Source: Purpureocillium takamizusanense (lineage: Eukaryota; Ascomycota; Sordariomycetes; Hypocreales; Ophiocordycipitaceae). From it: a stretch of 64,000 bases of DNA. Positions 31,701-64,000 of the stretch are shown here, piece after piece. Position 1 is the first letter of the stretch, and each line of letters starts with the position of its first letter. The translations under genes were made by a program, and so were the position numbers. The DNA is taken from NCBI RefSeq assembly GCF_022605165.1, contig NC_063070.1:2604001-2668000 (forward strand), written 5' to 3'. The notes below the pieces were generated by a model. It saw only the letters and a list, made by a program, of their open reading frames with translations. It was not told where the DNA came from and ran no database searches.

Positions 31701-33143
31701 GTTGAAGCCGTCGGAGTCGTGGGTTGCGAGATGGTGGCAATAGATGCAGCTGCAGTTCCTCCTACAGACAGTCCGGGCATGGGCGATTCTGACTTCATGG
31801 TGGTGTCGAGCGGCGCCATGGCCGGTGGCGGAATGTCTCGTTCCTTGAAGGCGCTAGGCAACGTGGGAGGTCCACGCTCCTGGCCAGGAGCCGAGCCCTT
31901 TCTCGGCGACATCCGATCTGTGCTTCTTGGTGGCGGCGCGACGGGATCTCGCTTGTTAGCAGGACTCATGAGCGGTGGGGGTACCAGATCCCGGTCTTGA
32001 GGGCGAGAAGGGTCCATGGGTGGCCTTCTTCTCTCGGGCGGTGGCTTCTCGTCCGTCTGCGGCTGAGGAGGCGTGCGAGTGCCCGCTGGCGGCTCAGACG
32101 GCTCTCTGGACTCTCCAAACCGCGCAAAGGCTCCAGGCCCGGCCATCCCGTTGCGGGAGCGAGGAGGTATGCTGGAGGTATCATCACTCCGGTTGGCAAA
32201 AGAGTCCTGACTCCTGTTGTTCTGGGCGGTCCATCGAGGCGCGGGCGGTCTCTCGCCCGAGCGTGTCGAGTCGAAGCTAGCGGCTGGGGAGTTCGAGCCG
32301 TTCAAAGGAGGCCGCACGATCGGGGGCTTTTGGAAACGCGGCTGCTCTGGAGTGCTCAATGCCGAGGGCACAGGCGGTACTGGCGCGGTGGGAGGAGCGG
32401 TCGGCTGGCCAAGGGGCTGTTCCAGCGGCGGAGGCCGCGGCGCCGCGGCGGCTGGCCGTCTTCCAGCACCGAGAACCTGATCGAGCTCGCGTTGGTCGAA
32501 GCCGCTCAGCTCAGGGATCTTGCCGCCCGTGTACTTGCCGTAGATCTTGATCAGGCTCGCGATGAAGAACTTCTTCTCCTTGTCGGTCTGGGCCTGCCAA
32601 TAGTATGGCTTGCCGAGGGTGACGAGGAAGCCGGTGTCGCCGCCCCATTGGCGGTTGTTAGGGGTCACCTGGGGGCCGGTATAGGACTCAATCTGGGAGA
32701 GGTCGTCAAGATTCCACGACTTGCCGATGGAAAAAGTGCCGGTGGGGTTCTCCTTGGATTTGTGCATGCGGACTCGGCCCGACTTTCGAACGGCGACGAT
32801 GATGACTCGGGGCTTCTCAGAGTCGGGGGTCCGAGCTTGCGGAGGCGGCGGTGTTGTGGGATGGGAGGAGTATTCGGTGATTCGGATATGCGTGATGTAG
32901 GTCTCGAGCACTGCATTGTGTCAGCCGGTCACGTCGCCTTGGCTCCCACCTCACTGTCGGGGTACCCGTCCGGGTCGTTGAGCGGCGCCGGCATCACATC
33001 CGGAGTGGGGGTCTGAATTCTGGATACGTACGTGACCCATCGGAATCTTTCTTGTTGAAGCAGCTGTCGATGATGCGGCGCTTCTCGTCTTCGAACCGCT
33101 CCGCCCGCGTGGCGGCCGCGCCAGGCCCGTTTGCGCGGTCCAT
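28789..33143 (-). CDS. SEC3: Exocyst complex component SEC3
   Basis: SEC3 is the exocyst subunit that marks sites of polarised exocytosis by binding PI(4,5)P2 and Rho GTPases. Exons are 33143-33032, 32910-30944, 30893-29758 and 29704-28789, giving 1376 aa. The short first exon (MDRANGPGAAATRAERFEDE...) joins in phase 1 to the N-terminal PH-like domain (ETYITHIRITEY, TFSIGKSWNLDDLSQIE, FFIASLIKIYGKYTGGKIPE). A long Pro/Ser/Arg-rich disordered linker of about 450 residues follows. The helical Sec3 core begins near residue 600 (YFGWVPGDRMRAQSMEEMKA) and runs to the C-terminus (YGGEVAFEWPRADVKAAFR). Intron 32911-33031 is 121 nt; the others are 50 and 53 nt. Large plus-strand frames over this gene are antisense shadows. 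Confidence 0.95.
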
Positions 33144-34044
33144 GAGTGCGCGGCTTGGGAGGCGGGATCATGAAGGGGCGTCCAACGCAAGACGGCGGTC
33201 GGGCATGTTTTTGTTGCGGAGGAGCGGCGGCTCGTGGCAAGGCGTGTACGTGCGTGCGTCTCGCGCAAGCTACGTGTGCGCCGTCGTGGCTCGGAGGGGG
33301 GGGTGGTGAGAGAGAAGTTGTCGTGGCTAGGAGACAGGTATGTATGGGAGTATGGATGGGGAGTCGCCAATCAGCCCAAGGAGGCGGGACAAGGAGGTTG
33401 CAATGCAATTGCGAGCAGCAGAGCACGGCCAGAGGAGCTTGGGTGGGTTTCCCGGCTCCAGCGCGGCAGCCACTGAGCGACGGCCACTGACGGGGCTGCA
33501 GGTTGTGCCGCAGCGATTTGATCGTCACAAGGTGGTGCTAAGGGGTGACTTGGAATGGATCACTCGACGGAAGGGTGGCAGCTGACAGGCTTTTGTGTGC
33601 AGCTTCCAAAGACGGTTCAAATGAGGGAAATGAATATTCTACTCGAAGCTTTGGCTATTGTTGATTCATAATGATCAGGTTCGTACCTAATGACACAGGA
33701 TGCCATGTATGGTCGCTGTAGCGGTCTATCGCAGCTGTGGAGCTTGGAGCCCCCCAGGTGCCGTGCTTGGTGCGACAGAACTTCCTCTCACTGAGAGGCG
33801 CGGCAGCAGTTCCATGGAACCTTTTACAGTATACAGTACCAAGCACACAGTGACTAGGGTCGCCGGCGACGGCACCAAGAATGGATGTCGGCCTGCGCTC
33901 GACGTGAAACTTTAAATTGGCATTGCACGCTTTCTTTCCTTTGCTCCGGCGCGTATCAAGCACCATTTCAGGTCCCTGTCCGGCCGTCGGCCCAGCCCCG
34001 CGGCATCGAAGCGAGCTGCCCATGCCCAGTATATAGTAATCTAC
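33144..34044. other. SEC3 promoter region and 3' region of the S58 peptidase gene
   Basis: These 900 bp have no supported gene. Open frames on both strands are short and differ in each frame. The SEC3 promoter should lie at about 33144-33600. Confidence 0.35.
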
Positions 34045-35238
34045 CTAGAGCCGCTTCTCGACGATCTCCTTAACTTTGGCCAGGTCCAGCGCCTCGACGT
34101 GCCTGCCCTTGAAGCCCGTCATGCTCTCCGCCATGGCTAGGGAGTTATAGATGGCCTCCTCCGTCGCGTCGGCCGCCGCCTCGAACAGGCCGTTGATGGT
34201 ATCGTTGTCTGTCATCTGCACAGCCCTTGCGAGAGGCTGGTACGGGTTGAGCCCTGGCCCGTTGGACATGGACAGCTCCTGCGAGGGCACCTTGTTGCCC
34301 GTGGAGAAGGCCAAGAAGATGTCGCCGGACGTGTTGCTGCCGTAACCGCCGACCTTGCCCAGACCGACCGTCGCTCGCGTCGCCAGGCGCTGCAGCTGGA
34401 TGGGGATGAGAGGCGCGTCCGTCGCGACGACGATGATGATGCTGCCGTCCTTGCGCGGCTCCTTGCTGCTGCTGCTGCTGCCGCTGCCGCCAGCGGGTTG
34501 TTCCGCGGCCGACGGGGCAATGCCCTCGTCCTGGAGGATCTTGCCGATGGGGACACCCCCGATGCGAAGCGTGTCTTGGGAGCCGTAATTCGCCTGGACC
34601 AGGACGCCCACCGTGTAGTCGACCACCTTGCCGTCCACGTCAAAGCCCTTGACGATGCGGCTACTGGACCCAGTGCCGCCCTTCCAGCGGTGGCAGATCA
34701 TGCCGGTGCCGCCTCCCGTGTTGCCCTCGGGCACGCGGTCAGCGGTGGCGCTCTTGATGCCTTGCATGACATGCTCCGGGGTAACGGCAAAGGCCGCGGG
34801 ATCGCTCAGGTAGCCGTCGAAAGTCTCGGCGACCAGTGGGAACATGAAGAGGTCCATGTCGCCTTGCTCGTTGCGATGGTAGCGATAGCAGTACTCGGTC
34901 ACGCCGCGATAGCCCTCGCCGACGGACGAGGTCGCGGTGATGATGATGGGCGACGCGAGCAGGCCCGTCTCGTTGAGCCAGTGCGAGCCCGTCATCTCGC
35001 CGCAGCCATTGAAGCGGAAGACGCCGGCGAAGCTCGAGTACTCGTGCCAGTTCCTGCGCGGCAGTATGGTGGTGACGCCCGTGTGGACGTTTGCATCCGG
35101 CTCGATGGACTGCGTGTGCACCAGCACGCCGGGCACGTCGGTGATGGAGTTGAGCCGGCCGGGCGACCACTTGCCGAGATACAGCTTCGGGATGACATGG
35201 CGGATGCGAGCGCGGCCGGCCTTGGCGGGCTGCGACAT
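34045..35238 (-). CDS. P1/S58 family (DmpA-type) aminopeptidase
   Basis: This is a self-processing N-terminal-nucleophile hydrolase of the DmpA / beta-aminopeptidase (peptidase S58) family. It probably releases N-terminal residues or D- or beta-amino acids. It is a single exon of 397 aa from ATG 35238. An in-frame extension upstream begins only with GTG and is rejected. Family features are the N-terminal [16 protein letters not shown] and [11 protein letters not shown], the [19 protein letters not shown] loop, [30 protein letters not shown], and the nucleophile region [19 protein letters not shown]. Ser304 is the expected autocleavage nucleophile, here preceded by Asn-Thr. A Ser-rich insert ([16 protein letters not shown]) separates the halves. 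No signal peptide is seen, so the protein is probably cytosolic. Confidence 0.92.
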
Positions 35239-36914
35239 GATGGGGGCTCGCGCGATGACCGTGATGGGTGGTGACTGGATAGGGAGGGGGATGGTGAAGG
35301 TTGTCGTCCCAAGTTGGCTCCCGGATGGACTTGCCACAGCTCACCGGCCCGCGTCACAGTTGAGGATGAGGTGGTCTTATACACTTCCGCTTGCAACGCA
35401 GCGTCGCAACTTGCCCCTCCACGCGCGAAGAAGAGCGGAGCTGGCGATGATGATGCGGCCGGTCGCAGGGGTACGGCACCCTTCCGCGCCCCATAATCGT
35501 ATCTCGTCGTAACGTCCCACGTTTTTGACTCACTCGGCGGCGGCAGTCTGAACTACGCACACACTCTCTGGCCTGAATTTTTAAGCCACCGATGACTTCT
35601 CAAATCGACAGACGCGCTCCATCTACGCAGTTAGTTACTATTATGGTGGCTTCGTACGTAGAGCCCGTGATAGCAAGTGGTGATGGGGATGTACTTCGTA
35701 GGGGCATCCGAACACCGAGTATTGAGGCTCGTCGAATTATTCCGCACGCGAGGAAACGGAAATCTAGCGTACGAAGTACCCGTTGTCCATGTACAACACA
35801 ATGCCTGATTGGATGCACGGGGGTATGACAGTCACACCCACAACGATGGTGGTTAGGGGTGCCGTGTTCCTTGGCCTCTTCCAAAGTTACCTGAGGTGCG
35901 CGTCGTCTGCAATCTGATCTGCGGAACAGGCGCACCGAAGCCGATTGGCCGGTGTGGACTGAAACCATGCCCGCGCCACGGGCCACGGAACGGATTTCCG
36001 ATATGGTTCGCCAGCATGTGAACATGAGCCGCGAGTAACGTCAGTATCTTGAGATTTCTCGAATATGCTCGGCTCCCAATGCGCTGTCGAGTTGTTATCC
36101 CAGGCTCATGTCGTCGTGACTACGTACCATCCTGGCTGACTCTTGGGCAGCGTCGCCGCCGGGGCCACTTCCACAGACTCCAGTCCAGACTCCAGAGGCC
36201 CCTGTCCGAGTTCCAGCATGATCGCCTTGGCACGACATCGCTCGAGCACGTAACTGAGGGGGATATGCTTTGCAATATCAATCAGTGTCTTTCGGAGCTA
36301 CTTGCTTCATAGGTAACGAAGCATCATGGGGTCTGAGACACAACGCGGGGATACGCATGCGGGGGGTTGGATGCAGACGACTGTTGATTCAACCCCGCAA
36401 CCGTTGCTGCCAACCGCGCACCTTTTTCCAGGATACCTACCGTTTTGCGTCGAACATTCGCGAGGGAGAGAGTACGAGAGTAGCTTCAACGTTGTTTTCC
36501 TTGCTTGGGTGGCTCCATGTCGTGGTTCTTCGGGGGGGGGGGCCCACGGACTTTGTGGTCCTGGTCGGATCCGAGCCGCGCCGTGAGCCAACCGGATCGA
36601 TACCCGGCAGGGAGAGCGATGCAGCATAGCGCGCACAAAAGTACGTACGAGAGTGGGTGCAATTAAAAAAGGGAGAACAAGGGGGCTAATGTATGGCGTT
36701 GAATTGGGCATTTGCTGTACACAGGCCTGCATGACCCCCCGTTTCTACCGCAGCGCTCCTTCAGGAAGCATTTCCCAGATGCGGTCGGGTACAAGTTCCA
36801 ATGCACGAGCTATAGACCGAGATCCGCCGACTTATACGAAGTACTTTCTGGCCCGATATAGTTGGCATTTAATCAGTCTCAGGTCGGCATAAAATTGACC
36901 CACGACGCCACTAT
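35239..36914. other. Gene-free spacer beside the NO VEIN-like gene
   Basis: These 1.7 kb have no supported gene, lower GC than the left half of the window, and many short random open frames. A G11 run lies at 36532-36542. No transposase, terminal inverted repeats or RNA gene was recognised. Degenerate mobile-element DNA cannot be excluded by eye. Confidence 0.4.
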
Positions 36915-39900
36915 TTACCGCCGATATACTGACTGTTCTCCAGGTGTTACAGCCCAGGGTTGACTATCAAACCGCAATGCCCCATCCTCCTTGAGTTGCC
37001 ACGGGTCGATGTACACGCACATCTCGATCGCCGTCGCATTTAAGCAAAAGACTCGCAAGATGATGTATAACTCTGAACGGTGCTCTGCGTGGTGTTTCTG
37101 CTCCATCTATATCCCGTGAGTCAGCACTTTCGCTGTAACAGTGGGTACCCAGGCTTACAAGTCTATACTGCTTCCCACTGACATAGAACGGTGTCTCGAG
37201 TGGTCCAGTAGTGGTTTTGACTTCCAAGAAGTACTTGGGCCGAGCACCGCGCCACTCGCTCTCTTCGAGGTGACCGCAGCCAATGAGCATGTCCGTAAAG
37301 TGGCCTTCTATATCGTCGTAGACTAGATCCGAGGTTTCGCTCGCCGTCCATGCTTGCATGTCTGCGTACTCAGGGAGAGCCTTCGCATAAGTCCTGATCC
37401 TGCTCTGCCAGTTGTTGTGGCTCCAACCTGGCAGTTCCAGTCTTTTCAGAAGCTCGAACACCTGTCCAGGAACAACCCGCCACTTATTAGTCTAGGACGA
37501 GGCAAGTTTTGGGTCAGCAAGACTTACGTAGAGTTCTCCAGCCGCGCCTACTTTCTTGTCTCGCTCGAATTGGCTACTTGATCGAAACGTAGGACGGACT
37601 TCCAAGCCGTCAAAGCTTATCACCTCACTCGGCGTAGTGTATGTGGGCAAGGTCTCTCGTAAGCTCCGGAGGTCGAAGTGACCTTGAGATGGAAACGATG
37701 CCCGCTGGGCCGCAGCGACTACTCTATTCAAGAGCTCGGAGTATCGTGTATCGTCGGCAATGCTGTTTCTCTCATTGATCGTTAAATCAGGATCGGTCTG
37801 CTCTATCGAAGAAGGTCTATCGTGTCCGAAAAATTGCGGAGAATGGAGACGCATTGTAGGTCGATAAGGACGGGACGGCTGCGTGTGATGAGACATGTGA
37901 CTTTGATGGGTAGTTGTCTCTACCAATGTCTCTGTATGACTTTCCCCAACTGGCGAATCGGGACCGCTGATAGTTCCCAAGAGCGGATGGGGCCTCAAAA
38001 TCTCAGGGTGGTCTTCGCGAAGTCTGCGGGACTGCTCAAGACCGTCTGTTGATTGCCGCCCCTGTTGACGATCGACGTCATTTTCCACGTCCTCCTGTGC
38101 AACATCCCGAGAATCGTCGTGCTCTGTTTCTGAATCTTCAGGATCTGTATTGTGAATAGACAGCTGTATGATGCCCAAGCGATCGAGGATCTCGTCCAAT
38201 GCGAAGCGACCACAAGTGAACACAGCTGTCAGCGCCTTGACAGCGTCATCGTCCACATCGTCTGTGTTGTTCGTTGTTGGATCTCGCATGAGCCACTCGG
38301 CAAACTTGCGAGGCAAGACTGTACTGAAACATAGCTCCTGCGATGTTTTCTGTCTGGGTACGTAAATGACCAGTCCTTCCGGTGTCTCATCAATGTGCTC
38401 GTTCCCAGCCGCCTCTTCGACGACCGTTGTCTTGTTGTTCTGCTGTATGAGGAAACTGGTGAAAATGCCATCTGTTGCTTTGACTGTCATTGAGCTCAAC
38501 GTTTCGTACAAACCTGATGAGCTAATTTGATACCGGGTGGTACGGAACGTTGCTGCAATTCTAATGACATAATGGGGATCAGCGACCAAGCCTGGTGCGT
38601 CACATAGGCCCAAAACTTACCGAAGGATGTGATACGCTTTGTGCCTCAAACTTCGAGGTCCGTTTGTGATCCGTTGCCCAGAATTCTCGGGGACGGAAGT
38701 GAATTCCTTGACGCAATAGGACAAATATCGATCCGTGAGGTTCAGCCAGTCGAACAACGGCTTTAGGCGATGGACGTCTTCCAGGTCATAGTCCAAGAGA
38801 GCGATCTTGTCCTTGAACTTGTCACTCAGATAGTCTCTGTCCCCAATAGCAAAATCGATTGCCGCAGATCGCAGTGTGGTTGTACCGTTGCAATAGCTCA
38901 CAGGAAATACATCAGCCTCCCTAATTGGCTTTGGGTCCAGAGAGGTGCCTTTCTCTGTCGCAAGTAGACTGCTGAGCGACGTAATAAGTATTCTGAGGTC
39001 GGCAACATCCCGCTCAGGCTTCGGTTGTCTGAGCTCGTCGTATATTAGCTGGAGAGTAAGCAACCTGACGCCCACAGTTTTGACGAAGAATGTCTTCAGC
39101 TCTTCATAGTCGGCGTCCAAAGTTACTTTGCCCCGGATAGACGTAGTGCTCGACCACAAACAGTCTGTTGTCTTATACCAACTCCACTGATTGTGTTTTT
39201 GGGCGTAGATGAGAGCCTTGTCATTGAATGCCAGTCTGACGCGTGTCAGTATTCTGAATAACAATAGTGTTAGGGAGCTATCGACTTGCCTTTGTTGCGG
39301 ACCTGTCCCCAGTGAATCCAGATATTCATAAAGACGTTTTATGCGAGTGAAGTCCGTACAGTCAATCAATCTGAGGTTTTGCAGCTCGGCTATCAGATGG
39401 TCAGAGGAAGCTGCCGGCATGAGCACAGTCCTGCAGAATAAATTTTCAATATTCGCTAGTTGTTCTTCTCCGAGGGTCCTCGCGTAGAGACTTCGCAGAG
39501 AGTATTTCGTCGTCATGTCCGGTGGTGCACGCCAAAGGCAGTCCGGTGATTTTGACCAAGATGTATTATTATTGTCTGGGATGAGGACACCAGACTGAGA
39601 GAAAAAGGTCCTATATGACCAATCAGAATGCCATCATGCCGCAAAGTAGAATAAACCTACCTGACTGCCTGGCTCGCAGACTCTTTAGATGCCTTTGTAG
39701 CAGTCGTGAGCTTGGCATTGATGGCTTGATATAGATCAAGTATGCACTGCGTTTGAAGGATTGATGGTGAACTGGGACAAGATTTCTGAATGTGGTGTAA
39801 AAGTCGAAGAAGGAAATGCACTGAGTCCTCAGCTCCCACGCCGAAATACTTCCTCATGAAATCCCACTTAACGCCGAGCACGTTGCTTGTGTCTTCAGAT

Positions 39901-42528
39901 CGCTCGAATCGAAGAAATGGGAACTGGTCAGGGTGTTCCATGTACTGCTTGGCGAGACTGGTGAGCCTTTCAGGCGGAAGCCAAGTGTCTCTGAGTTTGA
40001 CTTCGAAATTTGCTCCGCAAAGTCCTCTGGCGGGAAGGTTCCCCATCATTTGCTGAAGATTTGCACTGTCCCTTATGCGCTGGCCTTCCGCTTTCCAGAG
40101 AAACTCAAGCATCCCGAGAAACTTTTCTGGTCTATGCTTCAGTACGTATTGGGAAGTTTCAGATAGCTTCATGTTGCTGTCTTTGTCCAATAGTCGCAGC
40201 TGGCTTCGTACACCAACTGATTCGTGAAGCCAATCTTGCCATGACGGATGGTCTGCGGATGGTTTGTCTGGCGGATCTCGCACGTACTGCTGGTGCGCAA
40301 ATATAATAGGAAGGCCTGGAGCCGAATCGCTTTGTGATAGGAGACTCTGCGGCCCGTACATGTGATTCGAGCAAGAGAGATATACATCGCTCACATGCGG
40401 CCAAACTCGGGAATTGTTTTCCCGAATTAGAATAACTTTGCCGAAAATTTCGTTGGAGCCTCTGGTAGCGTGGTTGGATCGTGGCTGCGATGTTTGATAG
40501 AGGAACCGCAGATGTGCGTCGAAAGACCTGATGAGACGAGGACCTTGTGTCAAGGAGGTGAACTTTTGGAGTATAGAGTCTCTGATCATTCTAATTGACG
40601 CCTCATTCACACTAAGACTCTTGAATAGGGCCTTGCGATCCTGATTTGATGTTGCCCTTGGTTCGAGGATATTCATGTCCACGTCCTCTGGAATCATGAC
40701 GCCATTTGCTTCGGGAAAATATACCGTTGATGATAAAGAAGAGACCCAGTTCCCGTCTCGTAGTGGAATCAAGTCAAGTCGTTTTAAACGCTCCCAAAGA
40801 TCTGGATTTGCCAAAATCCTCAGAAGCAACTTCGCAACGACAGTATGCCATTCTTCAGTCGTATCTCTCCCGCGCATTTTCGAATCCGAGGCATGGATAT
40901 CATTCTCTACCATGTCGACAAACATGAAAAAATTCAATAATTTAAGGCCATATGGTTTTAAAATCCGGGTCATGGAGTGTGAATATTCCGGCGATAAAAA
41001 GAGATCATCGGCTGTCTCAAGCACCGGAGTGCCGTCTGCAAGTCTTGCATCATCCGAAAGTATCGAAACCTCTCTTATTCGACGTAGGTCTATCCGGCGC
41101 CTGGACCTCAGCACAGGAGTGGCCTTGATCTCCTCTGCAATCTTGTTGTTTAGACGCGACCAAAAAGCACTAGTGCTTGATTCTTCTTCCAGGGATGGAA
41201 GAAATGATGGCCACACGTAACAAAGTCTGGAGTCCTCACAGAACTGCAAGACAGCCTCCACGAAGGTTTTGGCAATCCATTCCAGGAGGTTAAGATTCCG
41301 TTTCGACGTAGTAATGACGTCCTCGCGACTGGAATTCGTGTCGAAATCGGAATGAATGAGGAACTTGTGGAAATGTGAGCGTGCGGTTCCTATGCCGAGA
41401 ACAGGAAATGGCCAAAAAGATTGAACTGACCCTATAATCGAGTTTCCGTATTGGCAGAAAGGCAAAAACATACTGCTTTTGATAGACCATTGGCCTCGAG
41501 TTCTCCGTCAAGGGGAAGGCCAAAACGATTTCTGCGGTGCTAACAATGGTTTCCCCTTTCGCTGAGTCTGCTACCTCACGATTTGTGCCCTCACCAACCC
41601 CGGTCGCAATTTTCTTCGTGATGTGATAGATCTGACTCTCCGTGGACTCCTTTGAGCCTGCAATAGACGTGGTGGTTTCCACAGACACACGATAGGTATC
41701 TACCTCACGCTTGGTGAACCGCGTCGACTTTTGCATCTTCCCATCCTCACCGTAGATTTCCACGCTTATGCACTGCAGCCTTTGAAGAAACAATAAGCAG
41801 GTTCCCTGTAGCTCTTCTAGTTGCTCACGGATGATGGATCGAAGGTGCTCGATCTCCGTCGAACTCCCCTCGTTGTGGAGATGGAGTGTCGTGTGGGTCA
41901 AAGGCGTGGGTAGCTGTTCTGTGGGTTCTTTCCACACGGGGCGGACCATCCCGAGCCCCGGATCCGTCTTTCTGTGATGAAACTGGAAGGAGTAATTTCC
42001 AGATTGAATGTAGACAGTGGACGCCGCAATGAAGACGGACTTGAAGCCAATGCCTTTGTTGCCAATATATCCAGACCCAGAAGCAGTCTTGGTGCTTTTG
42101 CCCACAGCGCATATAGCCTCCAAGTCTTTCTCATTGAATCCGTCTTCGTTGCAGTCGATGACAACGTAGTCCTGAAACATCTTGAACGAGACAAAGCGAG
42201 GCGCATTTTGTGCCTCTGCAATCTTGAACTTGTTGTCGTCTGCATTTTGGAGCAATTCGAATACAAAACGAGCACCGCTCCCATAAATTTGCTTTGCTAG
42301 CCTGTAGAAGTTAGACGATAGGTGTCATTGCCCGGTGGAAGTGCAAGTGGAGGCCCACGTTTTGATCGACTTCGATGCTGCAGTTTCTAGCGTGAGCCAG
42401 GCTTCGTCAATGCTCTGACGGTATTGAGGGTTCCAATTGGCAATGTCATCCATCATCTTCTTGTCCAGCATGCCGTATAATGCAGTAAGGCGCTGCACGA
42501 TGGCCTTTGCTTCTTCTACCGTCGCCAT
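36915..42528 (-). CDS. HSP90-type ATPase / NO VEIN C-terminal (DUF3883) giant protein
   Basis: I assembled seven exons: 42528-42359, 42301-41431, 41363-39661, 39610-38621, 38560-37528, 37461-37159 and 37106-36915. They give 1753 aa, and every junction keeps frame. The N-terminal GHKL ATPase is complete: FELLQNADDN (Glu72, Asn76), the NEDGF motif (Asp110), and the glycine-rich lid GYIGNKGIGFKSVF near 134-147. FLIHSDFDTNSSREDV then follows, as in sacsin and NO VEIN ATPases. About 1200 residues without a recognised domain come next. The C-terminus is a NO VEIN / DUF3883 domain (GELYVFELLKR from about 1586). It has PD-(D/E)XK-like residues Asp1634 (SDLVYDD) and Glu1669-x-Lys1671 (YFLEVKTTTG), then PFYVSGKQYRL and a terminal YIILRVF strand. 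GC and codon bias are visibly lower than in neighbouring genes. The biochemical role is unknown; plant NO VEIN is a nuclear developmental factor. Confidence 0.88.
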
Positions 42529-43582
42529 GGTGCATCAAGGTATAGCCGAGGGACCAGTGGACGCTTGATTGCAGCAGAAGGGCAGTTGTCGTGTACCGAA
42601 ATATTGAATGGCATGAAATGCGCGGACGAGGCGGCGACACGATTCAACTTGCAAGTTCATCAAACGGCTTCTCCTGGTAGCGTGTTGGAATTAGATGAAG
42701 ATGAGAACTTCCACCGGGTGGAGGCTTCTCTTTTCTTCCCCTTTTACTTCCCCGATCTCATCCCTAAAAATATTACAAGAAATGTGCATATGCACACTAA
42801 TGCTGGCGGCTTACTCTTCGGCGAGAGATGTAAAAGATTGGTCACTTCGGGTCGCGTTGGCCCGTCGTTGTGCACGTTGGCTGCAAGGTATTAATAGTGA
42901 GTCGGTTCTGCCACATGATTTTCAGCGGCACAGACCTCATTCCGGCGTTCGCAGCAAGAGACGGCCAGGTTCAAGCAGACGGCATGGCAGCTGTTCTTAA
43001 CGGGGGATCGAGAACCAACCTGTTGACAAGCTGCGATCTGACAGCGCCCCGAGGCGCCTCACGCTCTCTGCTGATGAGCCAGCCGTCAGAGAGCAGTGCG
43101 CCGGCCAGACTTGGACCTTTGTCGCATTGGACCGTCCCTGCAGTAGCATATCCTTCCTGGCAGGTCATAAAATTGGCGACGGACGGGATGTTGGGTTGTA
43201 ATGTGATTGACGCAGGCGTCACCGGCCGCCTCCCCGGCTTGGGGGCCAGAAGGCGCCAGTCGCCACTGGCAAGACAGTGGAGTCAGCTAACGCAGCCCAT
43301 TGGAAGCCTCATCAGTCGGCATCGCCAGCCCCGTGGAGCGCTGCAGGCGAGCCGCCCACCCCCCGGTAGCCGTTCCTCCGCCCCGCCGATTTTCCCCCAC
43401 AACCGAAGGATGGGGGAGCAACGTACTCCCCACACCACCATCCCGATCCATATCCGAGGCACGACGCCCCTCCAAACCCCCCTTCGCCGCGTCTGGTCTC
43501 GTCGTCTCCCCGTCGGTGCCATCTCATCTCACCTCACCCTTCACTTTCGGAAGGGTTTGGCGGTTTCCGCGTCGAATTCAAG
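42529..43582. promoter_or_regulatory. Divergent upstream region: NO VEIN-like gene and transhydrogenase
   Basis: These 1.05 kb lie between divergent starts. The left third is AT-richer, like the NO VEIN-like gene, while the right third is a C-rich leader typical of the housekeeping gene. The composition change near 43,000 marks the border of the low-GC segment. No specific binding site can be named. Confidence 0.4.
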
Positions 43583-62218: not shown

Positions 62219-64000
62219 TTTTTGGGGGCCCGGGGGCGGGGGAGAGGAGAGGAAACAGAAAACTGTCGATGTGTTGCACCAGGCTGAGAGACAAGTACCG
62301 TATTGAAAGCACACTTGGAGTCGAGGACGCCAGCGTTGAGCGTGAAGGGGAAAAGGGGGCGGTGGGGTGATGATGATAAAATACATATAGTGAGCGTTCC
62401 CGTGTGACGTGCTCAGGGGCAACACGAACCGTGTAGTTGATATAGTTTCTGGCTCACAATGGATGCACGGGTGGACCGGACGGACGGACGGACGGACGGG
62501 CGGGCGGGCGGGCGGGCGCGACTTGAACCTGAACTCTCTCGCCCGATGGTCAGCAAACATGAACTGACCTGCACGTCACGCCGCTGGCTGGCGGGTGCGT
62601 CCGCTGAAACTCAGGTTGGTCCGTCAAACTGCCGAGCATTCGACATCATGAAATCATAAAATATGGTTCCGCGACCGTCTGCACTGGCGATCCGCCCGCT
62701 CAAACGAGGCGAATACCAAGGCGCCGGTTTCCAACACCCAACATCCAATATCCAGTCATCTAGGCAGCCGCCACCTTTGCCCCTCGCCCGCCCGTCCGTC
62801 TGCGAGCATGGACTCAGAGACGATCAAAGTGAAGCTGTGCTGTTCAGCACGCATAGACTGCGCTCTGTGCCTTGGGGCGCGCTGTGCCCCCCGCCCCTCA
62901 ACATGATGTGTTTGTCGAACATGGAACACCCGCGGACTAGGGTCGAATTGTTCTGAATCAAAGTAAACCAAACTGTTTGGCTCGCCTAATGTTGTCAATT
63001 TATGCCTCTATGTGTCAAGCTGAAACGCATAATGGCTACTTCTTTACGTTCGTTGAGAAGCGGAGGTGGGAGGGGCCATGCCTCCTGTCACGCGCCTATG
63101 TCGCGATGGAGTGTCGAGAGCCCTGTCATAATTGTAACGTAATGGAATCTACGATCTGACATTCGCCGGCCTTTGAAACCAGTGCCCGACGGTTTTGACG
63201 AGCTAATCACTCCGAGGTCAGACCAGACTCTTTCATGCCAGTATCAACGGCTAGTTGACGTATAAATTGCTCAACCCGACTGGTGGCCCCCGATAACTGA
63301 TCTCTGTTTGATATTTGATAACATTTTTTTTGTGACCTGAAAGCCAGCAATATGATAGCAAGACCGTGACAGCAAAAAGAAGACCGCGGGAATACTACCC
63401 GCTGGTCTTTATCGCGTCGGCACTCTTTGCGCAATAAACAGCCGCCCTGAGTGCCCAGTACATGGCCAAAACCAGTGTTCTGAGGTTGCGTCAACATCGA
63501 CCCTTTCTACTGTATCCTGAAGCCGCGTCTACAGAGCAGTGCGACGCCTGATCACACTACATGTGTAGTTGAAAGATGCAGATGGCTTGTATCTGAACAG
63601 TCAATTAACGGGCTTACACGGCGAGTTGCCATGACGGCTCCCGAGTTTCGACGAGCCCAACCCGTATGTTGGCGGGTGGAGACCAGAGGTTTCATGTTGT
63701 CGTCCCACTCTACAGCGTTGGCGCCGCAGCCAATTGTGTGTATTATCAATTGATCCTTACCTGTCCCCCCCCTTCTCCTAGTGTCCTACAACTAGGAGCT
63801 CGAGGCGCTTAACATCACGACCAAGGACCTATGGGGAAGTATACTCAAGGATAAGAAACATGGAACATGAGCCGCACGACGTATCAAATGCTAATAGGCT
63901 CGCCGTCGTCTAACAGCCATGCTAATATTGCTCCCATCTGCCCAGTCGTGATCGGGCTGACTCACCACTTGCCTGCAGGAAGAAAAGGAAACGTGACTCG
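62219..64000. other. Gene-free right end of the window
   Basis: These 1.8 kb have no supported gene. They contain the tetranucleotide repeat at 62475-62518 and several AT-rich patches (for example 63290-63360). Open frames are short and lack codon bias. The segment could be the promoter of the minus-strand gene to its left plus spacer. Confidence 0.4.
62475..62518. repeat. Tandem tetranucleotide repeat, (CGGA)n followed by (CGGG)n
   Basis: About six units of CGGA change directly into about five units of CGGG. It lies about 260 bp upstream of the small hypothetical gene, so it may sit in its promoter. The switch from A to G in the repeat unit suggests one point mutation followed by slippage expansion. 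Confidence 0.85.

Follow-up and report, generated by a model that had tools for sequence, protein, structure and literature searches.

What a filamentous ascomycete might do with a giant protein that joins an HSP90-like ATPase to a nuclease-type domain is the question raised by one gene in the window analysed here, a stretch of 64,000 nucleotides from Purpureocillium takamizusanense (contig C3:2604001-2668000 of a genome of 35.6 Mb assembled into 14 contigs). The gene occupies the minus strand at 36915..42528, as do all of its features given below, and runs from an ATG at 42528 to a stop at 36915, with a predicted product of the Sacsin/NOV type. Its architecture, folds, catalytic-type residues, homology to the bacterial protein TmtA, and unusual composition and divergence were established by computation. 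We hold it about an even proposition that we are dealing with a fungal representative of the TmtA/sacsin-NOV family of giant ATPases, with an ATP-gated nuclease mechanism and a job in defence; the homology to TmtA and the presence of two enzyme-type ends are well supported.

Homology to the bacterial protein TmtA

Tiamat (TmtA) is a bacterial anti-phage protein. Comparison of the fungal protein with the PADLOC models of TmtA yielded a match in a single stretch covering residues 23-753 (E 5.1e-79, 264.7 bits), which is significant and extends past the common ATPase domain. As controls, the HSP90 of the same genome was shown to have no PADLOC match at E<=1, and its own DUF3684/sacsin-type protein matched one TmtA model in five pieces (E 1.2e-21, 74 bits). 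Because the latter control also matches a TmtA model, sacsin-type ATPases generally appear to be somewhat TmtA-like, the resemblance being much stronger in the window protein and reaching further along it. TmtA was also matched at E<=1e-3 by all 24 fungal relatives scanned.

A scan of the genome collection identified 240 prokaryotic relatives; the 80 best loci among them were retained and, together with three plasmid loci, provided 83 open reading frames. All 33 hand-picked prokaryotic relatives match TmtA at E<=1e-10; a NOV_C domain was found in 14 of these 33, a count that is not a frequency because NOV_C-like tails were favoured in the selection, and helicase or S1 domains were observed in single others. 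Across the bacterial relatives (L013-L095), a common ATPase half is combined with varied ends, and paired-cysteine and HNH-like motifs were seen by eye in some of the tails.

The fungal profile aligned with the TmtA of Colwellia (L017) over residues 53-1202 (probability 99.8%, E 2.1e-30, 22% identity), in an alignment with some loose stretches (summed probability 527 across 964 columns). In a hidden Markov model (HMM) search of the 83 prokaryotic and two own proteins, L017 was matched at 52-572 and, separately, at 961-1211, and neither the HSP90 of the genome nor a 653-aa fragment of its DUF3684 protein was matched at E<=10. The same search returned weak, separate C-terminal matches to L055 (E 7e-7), L030 (2e-5), L013 (0.003) and L070 (0.06). 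L017 itself carries NOV_C at 1434-1501 of its 1631 residues. The two proteins align from the ATPase into the middle, and their C-terminal domains were each seen separately.

The surroundings of some bacterial TmtA genes were consistent with defence. In Colwellia, genes named by PADLOC as ZorB, ZorE, a DrmD-like helicase and a type IIG restriction-methylation gene precede TmtA-NOV_C in a one-stranded run, with the TmtA gene located 3 bp behind the type IIG gene; the run (L017:31-14782) resembles a possible composite Zorya-type system. A plasmid-borne relative from Sulfuricurvum sits between a NERD protein and Qat anti-phage genes. Restriction-modification, Qat or Piwi names occur within 12 kb in five of the ten plasmid regions opened (H1, H2, H6, H8 and H11), as tallied by eye and without a background rate. 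A sixth region (H9) has DUF499 and DUF1156 neighbours, and DUF499-type ATPases are linked to restriction-modification operons in the available part of PMC3710099. No clear defence names were found among the neighbours in regions H3, H4, H5 and H7, of which H7 contains a Fic/VbhA pair and H5 an SMC ATPase and an exonuclease. The link to defence suggested in the initial annotation has thereby gained an independent line of support, i.e. strong homology to a bacterial protein that is encoded, in some cases, amid defence genes; the role as such stays inferential.

Gene structure and enzyme-type domains

The gene model was reconstructed from the window sequence and from full-length alignment to proteins P0001 and P0002. 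P0001 corresponds to P. takamizusanense JDV02_004396, i.e. the same gene, annotated by NCBI at 1661 aa. The initial annotation had described six introns and 1753 aa; such a model, with its motif numbering, can be built, but it misses a seventh intron of 54 nt (39236..39289) with GC-AG ends and a CTAAC box. This intron was called because the 18 residues that it would otherwise encode are absent from P0001, P0002 and the relatives aligned at this position, all 14 of which display a gap over most or all of the 18 columns. With its removal, the predicted product is 1735 aa in length and is encoded by eight exons (42528-42359, 42301-41431, 41363-39661, 39610-39290, 39235-38621, 38560-37528, 37461-37159 and 37106-36915). 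P0001 is shorter because its model also removes approximately residues 680-765; in the window this stretch is an open frame that can be aligned with P0002, and the P0001 annotation looks mis-spliced here.

The N-terminal GHKL (HSP90/sacsin/GyrB-type) ATP-binding domain spans approximately residues 51-255 (41707..42378; boundaries approximate) and is split by intron 1. Glu72, Asn76, Asp110 and the motif GNKGIGFKS, all read in the initial annotation, are indeed present, and the three single residues are conserved in 117, 116 and 118, respectively, of 120 aligned fungal rows, the remainder being gaps except for one Arg at position 76. Pfam SACS (PF25794) was matched by the whole protein at 38.2 bits against a cut-off of 32.8, NCBIfam NF047352 matched P0001, and fold matches were obtained to HSP90, GyrB and sacsin SR1; both nucleotide-binding residues and fold are those of a sacsin-type GHKL ATPase. 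Profile searches against solved structures (E<=0.01) returned HSP90 only for alignment A1, and HSP90 and weakly sacsin for alignment A3; a nuclease was not found by sequence with either alignment at this threshold. An HSP90 chaperone gene was considered and rejected, as PF00183 was not matched at E<=1 in the Pfam scan and the true HSP90 of the genome is a separate gene elsewhere; the NCBIfam HSP90 model scored 17.5 bits against 455 on P0001, which places it outside that family. Pfam scans of the window protein and the 24 fungal relatives detected no J, UbL or HEPN domain.

The claim that the middle 1200 residues lack any recognised domain proved too strong. A transducer or middle-domain-like continuation, containing intron 2, covers approximately residues 256-490 (40935..41706; boundaries approximate) and falls inside the TmtA-matching part; VIA-align rows to GyrB, HSP90 and Topo VI-B cover model residues 31-491, extending the ATPase-transducer fold to about residue 490. 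Two copies of a module of approximately 100 residues follow at approximately residues 865-1085, containing introns 3 and 4 (39046..39812; window coordinates approximate). This duplication, at about 870-1100 in the P0002 alignment, was detected with hhalign between non-overlapping slices starting at 870 and 990 (probability 98, E 1.4e-13), the top-ranking pair among 378 slice pairs. Among the 120 relatives listed, all except one have a precomputed assignment to a newer Pfam accession, PF27504. A variable, acidic, low-complexity linker, delimited approximately from the alignment, occupies residues ~1374-1500 (37741..38119).

The C-terminal PD-(D/E)XK nuclease-type (NOV_C/DUF3883-like) domain comprises approximately residues 1555-1735 (36915..37578). 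Its fold was modelled with AlphaFold2 on the corresponding domain of the Fusarium relative P0121 (mean pLDDT 81.3, pTM 0.78). The 14 top-ranked Foldseek matches of this model are PD-(D/E)XK nucleases, none reaching E 1e-3, with unrelated folds from rank 15; following re-alignment with VIA-align, all 50 matches listed are nucleases. In the two comparisons, the fold lies near those of Hjc, SPARDA and restriction nucleases. The structural comparison called for in the initial annotation has thus returned a nuclease-type fold, with a conserved Glu, Asp and Glu-x-Lys, represented in the window protein by Glu1569 (37536-37534), Asp1621 (37314-37312), Glu1651 (37224-37222) and Lys1653 (37218-37216). 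Asp1621 is kept in 110 of 120 rows (10 gaps), and Glu1651 and Lys1653 each in 107 (11 gaps, 2 other letters). The best structural matches and the conserved Asp and (D/E)-x-Lys agree in placing the domain in the PD-(D/E)XK superfamily. The Glu1669-x-Lys1671 pair of the 1753-aa numbering was correctly identified, but the unchanging Asp is Asp1639 of that numbering (Asp1621 here) rather than the proposed Asp1634 (Asp1616 here, kept in 108 of 120 rows).

Assignment of this domain to DUF3883 held for relatives more than for the window sequence. NOV_C (PF13020, DUF3883) scored 18.5 bits on the C-terminal piece against a cut-off of 22.1, and the whole window protein had no Pfam NOV_C match at E<=1; NOV_C as a plain Pfam call was rejected for this sequence. 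In contrast, P0121 passes at 25 bits and 11 of the 24 fungal relatives scanned match at E<=0.01. Because of the score below cut-off, the assignment rests on fold, residues and relatives. A NOV_C search of the genome itself gave no match, the domain being weak and intron-split. In the available part of PMC3710099, DUF3883 is viewed as a restriction-endonuclease-type domain.

Composition and evolution in fungi

The locus is low in GC, as initially reported, with 0.467-0.519 per kb at 37001-42000 against 0.547-0.645 per kb at 33001-37000 and 0.570-0.636 over the three kilobases that follow position 43000. Low values also occur in a few further kilobases of the window (e.g. 0.508 at 63001-64000). 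GC at third codon positions (GC3) of the coding sequence is 0.544, compared with 0.563-0.900 in 24 other open frames of at least 300 codons in the window, a set which includes antisense frames, and with 0.497-0.573 in single frames of the ATPase gene.

Divergence was assessed from identities and cluster sizes in a protein database clustered at 90%, with one name per cluster. The nearest relative outside its own record, from Conoideocrella, is 56% identical, and the 90% cluster of the window gene has a size of 1. By comparison, the Hypocreales named among the relatives of the neighbouring hydroxyacid-oxoacid transhydrogenase show 81-90% identity, with a top cluster size of 58; this yardstick is a single conserved metabolic gene and a lenient one, and the window organism's own copy is assumed to lie inside a cluster. 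In a quick tree with very long bacterial branches and no placed root, Fusarium falls into two clades, one of 8 and one of 10 rows (support 100 each), with seven species common to both, and these paralogue clades point to an old duplication and to loss. Uniform vertical inheritance is weakened, although the nearest relative, from a different hypocrealean family from that of the window organism, fits vertical descent.

Further copies were observed in the same genome. A paralogue at C1:1848481-1852294 (L100) has a changed Glu/Asn box and lid motif, with no nuclease-domain match within 8 kb, and is possibly a pseudo-enzyme. A relic of the C-terminal nuclease end, with several stops, is located at C8:68345-68977 (L101), close to where the contig begins and in sequence richer in AT, and the block C8:68501-69000 displays an RIP-like index (TA/AT 1.41, substrate index 0.50). 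Apart from these copies, C4:1159968-1165109 (L102:968-6109) encodes, without introns, another giant GHKL protein, a sacsin-type ATPase of 1713 aa that matches DUF3684 in full (1496 bits). The low GC3, the divergence, the degenerate paralogue, the stop-ridden relic and the Fusarium paralogue clades are traits of an accessory gene.

Beyond this genome, the available text of PMC12135003 highlights a Zymoseptoria tritici gene in a quantitative trait locus (QTL) for high-temperature growth and proposes it for temperature response; its Table 4 and text give two frameshifts and a stop between the two parents, with 91.88% protein similarity. This gene is likely family member P0118, strain and length being the points of agreement on which the identification is made.

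Proposed function and comparison with known systems

According to the favoured mechanism, the N-terminal GHKL ATPase and transducer would form an ATP-gated, dimeric clamp, as in GyrB, MutL and HSP90, and the repeat-containing middle would sense or scaffold the target. ATP-driven closure would then bring the C-terminal nuclease, carried on its flexible acidic linker, onto nucleic acid for cleavage. A clamp that licenses a nuclease is suggested by the GyrB/MutL-type ATPases and by the architecture; nuclease activity, its coupling to the clamp, the trigger and the target are likewise putative. Its most likely job would be to defend the cell against nucleic acid that is foreign or misbehaves (a mycovirus, a transposon or invading DNA), or to bring about cell death upon non-self recognition. 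Such a role is proposed because of the bacterial family and its surroundings, the restriction-endonuclease-type view of DUF3883 (PMC3710099, available part) and the accessory-gene behaviour; we give it roughly an equal chance of being right or wrong, and rank it above the alternatives of a chaperone or developmental factor, an allorecognition factor and a genome-maintenance nuclease.

Plant NO VEIN has a developmental and nuclear role, and a sacsin- or NO VEIN-like factor that remodels proteins in stress or growth, with a C-terminal domain that binds nucleic acid without cutting it, would also account for the SACS match and the HSP90-like ATPase fold, as well as for the likely Zymoseptoria member in the high-temperature growth QTL (PMC12135003, available text). 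We regard this as unlikely: the HSP90 of the genome has no TmtA match, J, UbL and HEPN were not found in the Pfam scans, the nuclease residues are nearly invariant, and loss and decay of paralogues would be unusual for a core chaperone. The same divergence and paralogue turnover, together with the frameshifts and stop that separate the two parental versions of the likely Zymoseptoria member (PMC12135003, available text), could instead reflect heterokaryon incompatibility, in which allelic differences between strains would trigger the ATPase-nuclease and kill the fused cell; however, no link to incompatibility was found in the literature searched, and this explanation is clearly improbable.

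A MutL- or Hjc-like nuclease acting on recombination or replication intermediates is slightly less probable again. The C-terminal fold of the window protein is near those of Hjc, SPARDA and restriction nucleases, and the similarity of its GHKL-transducer module extends to GyrB, MutL and Topo VI-B; however, core repair genes are usually conserved, whereas the window gene has diverged, has a low GC3 and shares its 90% cluster with no other sequence. That the gene is decaying or neutral and without present function, as the relic, the degenerate paralogue and the low GC3 might imply, is very improbable, given 1735 codons open across eight exons, intact motifs and the same residues conserved across distant Ascomycota.

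A giant ATPase-nuclease family common to a bacterial anti-phage system and many ascomycetes represents a concrete, testable candidate for antiviral or anti-transposon defence, and Tiamat, the mechanism of which is given as unknown in the available part of a 2023 survey (PMC10482375), gains a counterpart in eukaryotes whose active-site residues are clear enough for mutation. An immune protein shared with bacteria, and as yet unstudied, may thus be present in filamentous fungi. More broadly, and only tentatively, filamentous ascomycetes could possess a widespread, paralogue-rich immune family of ATP-gated nucleases, Tiamat-homologous over most of their length, which would recognise nucleic acid of viruses, transposons or non-self origin, whether cytoplasmic or nuclear, and either cut it or kill the hyphal compartment, forming a direct evolutionary bridge from bacterial anti-phage immunity to antiviral or allorecognition immunity in fungi. 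According to the available part of PMC12881547, NLR-like and gasdermin systems account for most of what is known of immunity in fungi; a term search of this article and PMC11291939 found no mention of sacsin or DUF3883. Among the titles and abstract openings listed from the open-licence literature, no description of an immune role for a fungal Tiamat, NOV or sacsin was found, and an earlier description may exist elsewhere. The window gene joins an already annotated family, many fungal members of which are named 'Protein NO VEIN C-terminal domain-containing protein' in UniRef, and the existing labels are just 'NO VEIN domain' or 'ATPase-like'.

With plant NO VEIN (NOV) and these fungal proteins, the window protein shares an N-terminal ATPase and a C-terminal NOV_C-type domain, although its NOV_C is under the curated cut-off and the plant protein is likened by its general description. 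It differs from sacsin (SACS) in that one ATPase module was found and that the Pfam scans detected neither a J nor a HEPN domain. Compared with the Hjc Holliday-junction resolvase and the SPARDA nuclease domain, to which identity in VIA-align rows is 9-17%, the nuclease-type domain here ends a giant ATPase. With Tiamat it shares the N-terminal ATPase and its continuation, over ~730 residues of the fungal protein, and with Colwellia L017, which is both the longest and the best of the full-contig matches in bacteria, apparently the order of ATPase, long middle and NOV_C-type end. It differs from Tiamat in being eukaryotic, spliced and 22% identical to L017, with the TmtA models stopping short of its C-terminus.

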